Assembly (NCBI RefSeq): GCF_002959915.1
Contig: NZ_PPDE01000008.1
Location: 620,001-684,000 of the forward strand
Reading direction: 5' to 3'
DNA length: 64,000 nucleotides
DNA from: Veillonella atypica KON
Lineage (GTDB): Bacteria > Bacillota > Negativicutes > Veillonellales > Veillonellaceae
The translations under genes were made by a program, and so were the position numbers. Positions within the stretch are counted from its first letter, which is position 1, and each line of letters starts with the position of its first letter. This document shows positions 5,339 to 26,554 of this stretch, piece by piece. Below the pieces are notes generated by a model, which saw nothing but the letters and a program-made list of their open reading frames with translations, was not told the DNA's origin and searched no databases.

Positions 5339-5830
5339 AAATAGAACAGGCCTGTTCTATTTCTAAAGATACGCATACACATCTTCTAAAAATTAGTACA
5401 GGCCTGTTCTATTTCTAGAGGCACGCATACACATCTTCCTAAAATTAGTACAGGCCTGTTCTATTCCTAAAGGCACGCATACACATCTCTCTAAAAATTA
5501 GTACAGGCCTGTTCTATTCCTAAAAGTACGCATACACATCTCTCTAAAATTAGTACAGGCCTGTTCTATTCCTAAAGATACGCATACACATCTTCCTAAA
5601 ATTAGTACAGGCCTGTTCTATTTCTAAAGATACGCATACACATCTCTCTAAAAATTAGAACAGGCCTGTTCTATTCTTAAAACACGCTCTATTAACATAT
5701 CCCTCAAATTAGTACAGGCCTGTTCTATTCCTAAAGGCACGCATACACATCTCTCTAAAATTAGTACAGGCCTGTTCTATTTCTAAAGATACGCATACAC
5801 ATCTTCCCAAAATTAGTACAGGCCTGTAGT
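5339..5830. repeat. Palindrome array 2: ten ACAGGCCTGT units at ~52-bp spacing
   Basis: ACAGGCCTGT starts at 5346, 5398, 5450, 5503, 5555, 5607, 5660, 5714, 5766 and 5818; spacings are 52-54 bp. The unit is the same as in array 1 and in the same orientation: a palindrome, then TATTYCTAAAG, CGCATACACATC and AAATTAG. The first copy is a perfect 24-bp palindrome (5339-5362); most others have GTAC in place of GAAC on the left arm. The array fills the space between the thrS promoter and the 3' end of the secreted-protein gene, about 500 bp. No reading frame in it looks real. Confidence 0.92.
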
Positions 5831-24635: not shown

Positions 24636-24702
24636 AACTACCTCGTATACTAACAGGTCCATCGACCTTCATACCATCTACTCTTCATATCTATATTATA
24701 AC

Positions 24703-24754: not shown

Positions 24755-24829
24755 TGGTGGGCCCACCTGGGATCGAACCAGGGACCGACCGGTTATGAGC
24801 CGGTTGCTCTACCCCTGAGCTATAGGCCC
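24755..24829 (-). tRNA. tRNA with CAU anticodon, probably tRNA-Ile2 (lysidine type)
   Basis: A complete 75-nt cloverleaf with encoded CCA: acceptor GGGCCTA/TGGGCCC, a short D-loop, anticodon arm ACCGG-CTCATAA-CCGGT, and T-arm CCTGG-TTCGATC-CCAGG. The CAU anticodon allows elongator Met or AUA-reading Ile2. The acceptor has C4-G69 and C5-G68, the pairs known to favour lysidine synthetase TilS over Met identity, and the anticodon arm resembles Bacillus Ile2. Initiator tRNA is excluded because the anticodon stem lacks the three G-C pairs and 1-72 is paired. Confidence 0.93.
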
Positions 24830-24844
24830 AAGCTTGCGTATAAA

Positions 24845-24873
24845 ATTATACTGAAAATTCTTAGGTACGTCAA
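24845..24873 (-). promoter_or_regulatory. Promoter of the CAU tRNA
   Basis: Minus-strand -35 TTGACG (24868-24873) and a perfect -10 TATAAT (24845-24850), spacer 17 bp. The spacer plus the last -35 base is the left arm of an 18-bp inverted repeat. Transcription would start about nine bases before the tRNA. Confidence 0.87.
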
Positions 24874-25018
24874 GTTATCTACGTGACCACAAAAAGAAGG
24901 CTTGCCCAAGCCTCCACCGCCTTAACAGTCTTCGGCCTAGGGCCTCGACTTAGCAAAGTCGTTTGGACAACCCTTCTTTTTGCTACTATACGACAACTGA
25001 GTACCTAAGAATTTTCAG
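24851..25018. repeat. Large interrupted inverted repeat upstream of the tRNA
   Basis: CTGAAAATTCTTAGGTAC (24851-24868) and its exact complement (25001-25018) are the ends of a 168-bp inverted structure. Further in, CAAAAAGAAGG (24890-24900) pairs with 24972-24982. The middle has smaller GC-rich hairpins. The right arm belongs to the tandem repeat that continues to 25325; the left arm is an inverted, diverged copy. Confidence 0.8.
24890..24913 (-). terminator. Terminator just upstream of the tRNA promoter
   Basis: AGGCTTG-GG-CAAGCCT followed by TTCTTTTT on the minus strand. It should stop read-through from the folE side before the tRNA promoter and is built from the repeat sequence. Confidence 0.7.
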
Positions 25019-25325
25019 CATCTACGGGAATCCCGGATTAAAAAGGAAAAATCATTTGTGGACGGTACCTTTCCGTTACACTTCGACATCTATGTAAGCA
25101 AGAAATTTTCAGTATCTACGGGGCTCCGGGATTAGACAGACAAAGTTGTTTGGACAAGCCTTCTTTTTGTTACTATACGACAACTGAGCACCTGAGAGTT
25201 TTCAGTATTCACAGTGCCCTGGGCCCAAACAGGAGATAAGTCGTTTGAGAGGAACTGCATGTTCTACTCTATTCTACATTCCGTGAGCAAAAAATTTTCA
25301 GTATCTACGGTGCTCCGGGATTAGG
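24950..25325. repeat. Four tandem ~94-bp mosaic repeats between folE and the tRNA
   Basis: The element TTTTCAG(T/C)AT(C/T)(T/C)AC recurs with its CAG at 25016, 25110, 25203 and 25299 (steps 94, 93, 96). Units alternate between two types. 24954-25018 and 25141-25205 share about 65 bp (AAAGT, TTTGGACAA, CTTCTTTTTG, ACTATACGACAACTGAG). Three of the units are followed by TACGG-(G/T)-(A/G)-CTCCGGGATTA or a variant. No convincing reading frame or known RNA is seen. This accounts for most of the 24663-25338 gap. Confidence 0.8.
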
Positions 25326-25338
25326 CAGGATAACTGTC

Positions 25339-25902
25339 TTATGCGTTTTTGAGTGTTAGGAATCGGTTGATCATGTCGTCTTGTTCGAAGACGCCTTTTG
25401 TGGCGAGGGTGGTTGTTTTGCTGTTGGCGGATTTTACGCCGCGGGCGCTGACGCAGCTATGGGAGCTTGTGATGTGGACGATGACGTCGTCGGTGCCGGT
25501 GGCAATGGAGATGACTTCGGCAATGTCTTCACCGATTTTTTCTTGTAGTTGTAATCGTTTGCAACACATTTCTGCAATGCGTGGCATCTTGGACAAGCCG
25601 ATGACACGGCCACGAGGAATATAGCCGATGCTGATGTTCATATCATACATCAAGGCCATGTGATGTTCACAATGGGAAAAGCAGGTAATATCTTTTACAA
25701 TTACCATTTGGTTTGTATCGACGTCAAAGGTTTTACCAAACATATCCGCAATGTCTGCATTCGTATATTGGATGCCTTCAAACATTTCTTCCATCATTTG
25801 GGCCACCCGTTTTGGTGTTTCTACGAGGCCTTCGCGATCTGGATTTTCTCCCAATGCTTCCAGTAATTGATACACTAGAGATTCGATTCGTTTTGTGTCC
25901 AT
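25339..25902 (-). CDS. folE: GTP cyclohydrolase I
   Basis: FolE converts GTP to 7,8-dihydroneopterin triphosphate, first step for folate and for 7-deazaguanines. The 187 residues keep the zinc ligands: Cys in CFSHCEHH with its histidine and Cys in HSCVSARGV. The GRVIGLSKMPRIAEM segment is normal. Between them MALMYDMNISIGYIP and SARGVKSANSKTTT are diverged from the usual LLPFFGxAHVAYIP and TMRGVxxPxS. I start at ATG 25902, where AAAGGAG lies upstream. It ends the queD-queE-folE operon, so its product most likely feeds queuosine synthesis. Confidence 0.92.
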   Translation of the reverse strand: MDTKRIESLVYQLLEALGENPDREGLVETPKRVAQMMEEMFEGIQYTNADIADMFGKTFDVDTNQMVIVKDITCFSHCEHHMALMYDMNISIGYIPRGRVIGLSKMPRIAEMCCKRLQLQEKIGEDIAEVISIATGTDDVIVHITSSHSCVSARGVKSANSKTTTLATKGVFEQDDMINRFLTLKNA

Positions 25903-25903
25903 G

Positions 25904-26554
25904 TTATACTCCTTTCGCATCAGGGTCCCAAATAAATTTATGAATTTGTAGCTGGAATCTAACGTTCTGCCAATTGTGGGCTTTCATATACTCAATAATC
26001 GTAGCCCCTTCAATATTGCCCCATACAGGAGATACGAAAATCTGCGCTTCTGTAGGATATGTTTTTAGAATTTCATTCATACGGTCTAAATCTTGCATAG
26101 AACCAACTACAAATTTAATGATATCCGCAGGTGTAGCTACCTTGAATATATCTAAGTTCATAGCATCTTCTGCTAAGGATGACGGCGTCTTGTAGTCATA
26201 GGTAAACCATACATTATCTCTATGAAAGCTAGGTATGATTGTACCATTCGTTTCTATATTAAAATCATATCGCGCATTACGTCTTGTTAACTCATCAATA
26301 AGTTCAATAATGGCCGGTTCCTGTAAAAGCGGTTCTCCACCGGTAATGGTGATGCGATGATTTTCTAATTGTTCAATCACATCAGCTACAGCCTGAACAC
26401 TCATGCTTTCAAAAGTACTTTCAGGACCATAACTATACAATGTATCGCAATAAGAGCAGCGAATATTACAGTCATGGAGACGCAAAAAGGTCGTCAAAAA
26501 TCCTTGTCGTTTCCCTTCTCCATCAATGGAAGAAAATAGTTCAATCACGTTCAT
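25904..26554 (-). CDS. queE: 7-carboxy-7-deazaguanine synthase (radical SAM)
   Basis: QueE rearranges 6-carboxytetrahydropterin to 7-carboxy-7-deazaguanine, the second committed step of queuosine precursor synthesis. The N-terminus has the family pattern ELFSSIDGEGKRQGFLTT and the cluster motif CNIRCSYCDT (C-x3-C-x2-C). ITITGGEPLLQ is the SAM-binding GGE motif. The 216-residue length is normal. I favour the ATG at 26554 (MNVIELF), overlapping queD by 14 bases; another ATG at 26566 has AGAAGGAA directly against it. It stops one base before folE starts. Confidence 0.93.
   Translation of the reverse strand: MNVIELFSSIDGEGKRQGFLTTFLRLHDCNIRCSYCDTLYSYGPESTFESMSVQAVADVIEQLENHRITITGGEPLLQEPAIIELIDELTRRNARYDFNIETNGTIIPSFHRDNVWFTYDYKTPSSLAEDAMNLDIFKVATPADIIKFVVGSMQDLDRMNEILKTYPTEAQIFVSPVWGNIEGATIIEYMKAHNWQNVRFQLQIHKFIWDPDAKGV

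Follow-up and report, generated by a model that had tools for sequence, protein, structure and literature searches.

What is a row of repeats, each about 94 bp long and with one copy seemingly turned to face the others, doing between two open reading frames of Veillonella atypica KON, and how did it come to be there? In the window, by which we mean the whole analyzed stretch of 64,000 nucleotides (contig NZ_PPDE01000008.1, positions 620,001 to 684,000), one open reading frame ends at 24662 and the next starts at 25339, and the 670-bp gap that a preliminary description placed between them is not empty. It holds a tRNA-Met (CAT) gene on the minus strand at 24755–24829 (ARAGORN; the Rfam tRNA match spans 24758–24829), which adjoins the block on what we call its gene-near side, and a promoter-like site for that tRNA, TTGACG-17-TATAAT, at 24845–24873 on the same strand (11/12 in a consensus scan), which lies within the block's left arm. 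The far-side neighbor is folE, for GTP cyclohydrolase I (25339–25920, minus strand; NCBIfam NF006826, 220 bits against a cut-off of 162).

The four direct units described earlier were recovered, with starts at 25012, 25106, 25199 and 25295 (spacings of 94, 93 and 96) and with 71–94% identity of the other three to the reference copy over 34 nt. Their two alternating types were recovered as well: units 1 and 3 are alike, and units 2 and 4 differ in a stretch that we call the inner arm. A direct pair of 68 nt (24954–25021 and 25141–25208) is 90% identical, and the perfect 18-bp terminal inverted repeat is contained within inverted arms of 21 nt (24848–24868 and 25001–25021, 95% complementary). 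What had been taken for a diverged inverted copy facing the array is instead the other arm of one hairpin. That is, a single intact long hairpin occupies 24848–25021 and folds better on the minus strand, to which all its parts are assigned: a gene-near inner arm of 23 nt (24890–24912), a tip (24912–24960, CTCCA...AAAGTC on the plus strand and GACTTT...GGTGGAG on the minus), a far-side inner arm of 23 nt (24961–24983) and a far-side outer arm (24984–25021). The block had been called highly structured, and it is: on neither strand did any of 200 shuffles fold as well. The minus strand of 24848–25021 reaches −84.9 kcal/mol, where its shuffles average −44.2 (z −9.95), and the plus strand reaches −64.2 kcal/mol (z −7.84); with DNA folding, the minus strand has a z of −9.18. 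Among 639 windows of 174 nt over the 64 kb, a single one folds equally well (−85.3), and we take it to overlap the hairpin itself.

Is the hairpin alone of its kind? A DNA search gave nine matches in the block's own genome and matches in 7 of 60 genomes, its own included, all of one genus. The matched loci have in common a recurring tip of about 50 nt flanked by long complementary arms that differ from locus to locus, with some copies partial in one three-member and one two-member cluster. Here we label the window's own genome G000, V. tobetsuensis G006 and the other Veillonella genomes by the remaining numbers of G001–G013; C11 (205 kb), C7 (146 kb) and C10 (796 kb) are contigs of G000. A covariance model built from 16 tips matched, at E ≤ 0.01, 43 times in G000, 32 times in G006 and 0–6 times in each of the other 12 Veillonella genomes, with at least one match in 12 of the 14 and none in 47 genomes of the order outside Veillonella. 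Searching other genomes, which the preliminary description had proposed for the 94-bp unit, found the tip dispersed, and in Veillonella only. A text pattern for the commoner tip type (type b, below) hit, among 84,980 species genomes, 17 stretches, all in Veillonella. A stretch of 351 kb from G000 contains 45 long-arm hairpins, compared with 8 in 360 kb of G002, where several are plain terminators by eye. Within the own genome, copies are dense on C11 and C7 and rare on C10. A phage or plasmid origin of the block was considered and dropped, because the block matched none of 50,697 phage and 72,556 plasmid records. In viral contigs the type b pattern had no match, and the one match to the pattern for type a, in a GC-rich stretch that lacks the hairpin, looks by eye like chance.

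The anatomy of the family reverses what one might expect of a repeat. There are two main tips, type a (the window's) and type b (CTCCACCGGCCGGGTCTGACTCCGGCCTACGGCCTTCGCAGGGCCAAAGTCG and variants), which have the closing loop CTCCA / AAAGTCG in common. For the 38 loci of G000 that combine a tip fitting one text pattern with arms that pair, a set without the degenerate and partial copies, pairing between the arms stands at 97% at position 22 from the tip, 87% at 23, 63% at 24 and 37% at 25, and beyond 25 it is mostly 50–65% until about position 62. Base composition in the arms is without consensus, apart from slight trends and a C that is frequent at position 9. The sharp drop in pairing and the lack of an arm consensus imply a stem of about 23 bp, free in sequence, between the tip loop and a second internal loop. 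At non-orthologous loci the arms are unrelated, so that the copies have no conserved palindromic stem in common, as REP or REPIN copies do, and no terminal inverted repeats common to all of them, as those of a miniature transposon (MITE) would be. Two other readings of the stem sequences were also rejected. For captured phage sequence, three 21–23-mers (two from the 38 G000 loci and one from G006) had no match in viral contigs. For guides directed at targets elsewhere, the 38 stems, searched against 1.01 Mb that included about a fifth of the own genome, gave only isolated four-mismatch matches besides their own site, its orthologue and local partial copies; shuffled stems gave three in all.

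Which strand folds? Inner-arm mispairs on the CTCCA strand of the 38 loci are A·C in 37 cases and G·T in 14 (20 loci against 5), an excess that implies G-U pairs on the opposite strand, and this bias was not seen in 11 stems of G006 (9 to 6). The GACTTT strand folds better in 32 of the 38 loci, and three CGNAG motifs occur in 19 of the 38 tips on that strand and in none on the other. GNA loops closed by C-G are very stable in DNA, which we regard as a lead. The GACTTT...GGTGGAG strand, the minus strand in the window, is thus likely to be the one that folds. Strong folding, a better strand and a G-U bias are also what one would count in favor of a structured RNA family (untranslated-region elements or small RNAs), in which pairing is selected, sequence drifts and copies spread by duplication and decay; 23 bp is, moreover, about two turns of an A-form helix. 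The repetitive small RNA locus suggested in the preliminary description may likewise fit a minus strand that is the better folder and has a G-U bias. We consider such a family an unlikely explanation. No Rfam family covers the block at the gathering threshold or even at E ≤ 5, which agrees with the earlier statement that it resembles no CRISPR, rRNA or known riboswitch and which here speaks against a catalogued RNA. The GACTTT strand also has no constant relation to genes: where the near-side gene lies within 100 nt, the strand faces its 3′ end in 15 of 19 cases and its 5′ end in 4.

The RNA explanation would further have the stems change by point drift, and here the sister species are informative. 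Of 16 pairs of G000 and G006 loci listed, one was unreadable and 15 were compared; with two indel-shifted pairs set aside, 13 loci remain. Their 289 base pairs comprise 229 unchanged, 40 changed on both sides to another Watson-Crick pair, 15 changed on one side and 5 others, and the both-side changes, which would suit a selected RNA, are concentrated in four loci (15, 9, 6 and 6). At C11:196984 hardly any of the inner stem is common to G000 and G006, although the flanks align closely; in other words, some stems have been replaced wholesale between sister species and are still paired, and a whole-stem replacement with almost no one-sided change is hard to reach by point drift. At C11:192611 the tip is reversed in orientation between the two species, and at C11:164518 the hairpin of G006 carries a different tip, type d, while G000 has half of a type d hairpin beside a type b one. 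Not every stem turns over: those at C7:42031 and both in L069 are unchanged between G000 and G006, bar one one-sided change, and at a site that seven other species have in common the inner stem is conserved, both sides having changed in 3 of its 38 pairs.

Where, then, did the arms come from? Among the 12 Veillonella genomes in which folE was matched, the insert is absent from nine (G001, G002, G005, G007, G008, G009, G010, G011 and G013), in which the tRNA is followed by a promoter-like stretch and then directly by the end of folE. It is present in two, G000 and G006, and the site is unreadable in G004, where no tRNA was found beside the folE match; folE went unmatched in G003 and G012. Because the promoter-like site of the tRNA lies in the left arm, and because relatives lack the insert, the left arm is in its ancestral place and the right arm, with the similar ends of the downstream units, is derived. 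Judged by these comparisons, the window's right arm arose as an inverted copy of the sequence beside it (its outer part, 24984–25021, of the promoter spacer region) and is not a transposon end. Elsewhere, too, hairpins of the family are missing from outgroup sites, at C11:181703 and 183362 in both G002 and G008 and at C11:192611 and 196984 in G002. These observations bear on a classical non-autonomous transposon, MITE-like, whose ends the inverted repeats would be. Dispersal, noncoding intergenic positions, empty sites in relatives and the presence of Y1 transposases in the genus all fit it, and yet the ends differ from copy to copy; private arms largely refute it, and we hold it very unlikely. 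Nor do Y1 counts match hairpin counts (9 and 3 in G011, 4 and 32 in G006), and inspection of the window's empty site by eye showed no target duplication, in flanks too diverged for certainty. The suggestion that the block is a non-autonomous mobile relic, then, has support in part, from the dispersed tip and from the sites that are empty in relatives, but the copies have no common transposon end in their inverted repeats.

The two arms also differ in their relation to genes. In positions 25–70 of the arms at 28 loci on C11 and C7, with open reading frames predicted mechanically, 573 of 1288 near-side positions are coding, as against 117 of 1288 on the far side, and the nearer gene is on the side of the gene-near arm at 21 of 27 loci (p 0.006; one of the 28, lying within an open reading frame, was dropped). 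Might the hairpins simply be transcription terminators, or barriers at transcript ends, standing in for ordinary ones? At 15 of the 27 loci a gene 3′ end lies within 100 nt on the near side, G002 has by eye a sequence like an ordinary terminator in the same place at C11:196984 and 164518, and one terminator-like match falls within the inner arm of the window copy on the minus strand. But several copies lie upstream of genes (for example, C11:174375), the full hairpin of the window has no T-run match at its base, and termination needs neither a shared tip nor a 23-bp spacing, all of which makes this role quite unlikely as an account of the family.

We can now return to the 94-bp units. They align with the right half of the hairpin, and the four have in common a tip end (AAGTCGTTTG or close to it), an internal-loop and outer-arm stretch and a TTTTCAG end, while differing in the inner arm. 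We read them, from their sequence, as one intact right half followed by three fossils, at 25022–25115 (inner arm different), 25116–25208 (inner arm resembling that of the intact hairpin) and 25209–25304 (inner arm different), with a tail at 25305–25330 that resembles the start of a next unit, a decayed tip end, and overlaps the fourth direct copy (25295–25328); fossils and tail are assigned to the minus strand. G006 has the first fossil too, and about 187 bp, two units, present in G000 are absent from it. Partial copies of the far arm lie on the far side not only in the window but at C7:42031 (two), C7:7061, C7:82518, C7:43189, C11:94947 and L053:422, several with 2–4 mismatches, against three hits in all for shuffled arms. 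The repeats of a CRISPR are short and near-identical, with unique spacers between them; these units are 93–96 bp long and 71–94% alike over 34 nt, and since they are explained as half-hairpins, the block is not a CRISPR array.

How might all of this be put together? The reading that we prefer, and to which we give a probability of about 0.5, is that the block belongs to a Veillonella-specific family of dispersed long hairpins in which a tip of about 50 nt is repeated and each stem is private, and that such hairpins originate by fold-back. A tip would land beside a gene edge; a strand ending in the self-folding tip would fold back, prime on its own flank and copy that flank, so that the far arm would repeat the gene-near arm in inverted form; subsequent slippage at the hairpin would leave tandem half-hairpins on the far side, the 94-bp units of the window; and some partner, perhaps a protein, would recognize the tip together with the internal loop 23 bp further down. 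Fold-back seems to us the most economical reading, since it would account for the asymmetry between the arms, for their being private to each locus and for the half-hairpins. Alone, it leaves unexplained the precise 23 bp and the inner arms that have no visible source in outgroups, and these two features point to recognition by a partner. Several observations count against the scheme. At C11:181703, 183362 and 196984, neither G002 nor G008 visibly has the 23 nt of the inner gene-near arm, which one would not expect from simple copying of an ancestral flank; within the outer arms, pairing is less frequent at coding than at noncoding positions (290/573 vs. 450/715); and the missing G-U bias in the G006 stems, the stem conserved in seven species and the unchanged G000/G006 stems must be set beside them.

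We found no donor or enzyme for the family, which also weighs against the scheme. Numbers of Y1_Tnp copies per genome, which pool RAYTs with IS200-type enzymes, do not track hairpin numbers, and a Y1 transposase as the driver was set aside for that reason. The integron integrase TIGR02249 exceeded the family cut-off in none of the 14 Veillonella genomes, no Argonaute (Piwi-domain protein) was found in any of the 14, and the reverse transcriptase RVT_1 matched in 3 of the 14 and in neither of the copy-rich G000 and G006; with these enzymes missing, integron, retron or retro-transposed and Argonaute-guided routes were rejected.

Nor did we find a description of the family in the open-access literature, including the available parts of PMC3733652, PMC2267715 and PMC6529473. 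Its nearest likeness is to REP, BIME and REPIN elements with their RAYTs (available parts of PMC3733652 and PMC3116915), which are likewise dispersed intergenic palindromes of one genus, clustered and often near gene ends. In a REP, the palindrome itself is conserved, is 20–40 bp long and carries a GTAG or CGTC tag (PMC3733652, available part, in which Veillonella is not mentioned), whereas in Veillonella the stem is private, with arms of about 60 bp or more each, and the tip alone is shared. ERIC and other families of long stem-loops (PMC2267715, where Veillonella is again not mentioned in the available part) are similar in being single intergenic stem-loops of more than 100 nt; ERIC, as portrayed there, differs in being a sequence family over its whole length.

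Two other systems offer analogies of a more mechanical kind. Integron attC sites are folded single-strand hairpins with one active strand, a variable stem and a kept structure and spacing, and the Veillonella hairpins work like them in preserving structure and spacing although the sequence of the stem changes; they differ in conserving the apex rather than the base and in having neither gene cassettes nor an integrase. The BOX elements of pneumococcus are structured repeats too, and as here their internal units stand in tandem and vary in number, but their module sequence is shared between loci and the Veillonella stems are not.

We regard the family as a new form of dispersed, structured repeat. 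To our knowledge, what is repeated in the known palindromic repeats of bacteria is the palindrome itself; this family does the opposite, with a constant tip, a private stem of fixed inner length and a far arm from the neighboring gene edge. A bolder proposal, which we think rather unlikely, is that the mobile part may be the structured single-stranded tip alone, that each insertion would write its own stem by fold-back, that stems would be renewed in paired form and that the partner would use the 23 bp as a ruler. If it were true, arrays of half-hairpins, the window's included, would preserve earlier stems locally, as fossils. Some forty natural cases in one genome, with comparisons to a sister species and to empty sites, bear on how long palindromes in bacteria arise, spread and keep their arms alike.

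A few further observations concern single copies and other palindromes. In G002, at the site of the C7:43189 hairpin (L152, C5 2900–3500), there is an apparent hairpin with another tip, GCACTTCGGTATCACTATATGTGAGCCTCGAAGC. A second hairpin family, at C11 126033, 168365, 177921 and 202782 and at C7 8519 and 62577 (L093–L111), is organized alike, with private near-perfect stems of at least 20 bp, around a different tip, GACTTCGGGCTCCGCG...GCGCAGTAGCGTGTC. A third repeated palindrome, built on GAACAGGCCTGTTC, occurs in the window at 5340–5412, at C11 93192, 114056 and 162524 and at C7 116402, and its arms are common to its copies. One copy of the main family (L006, 1201–1600) stands just after a T-box leader and before an apparent leuA-like gene, and may be part of the leader transcript. 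Another (L002, 1501–1602) lies directly upstream of an apparent metH-like gene, with an outer stem that pairs almost perfectly in G000 but not in G006.
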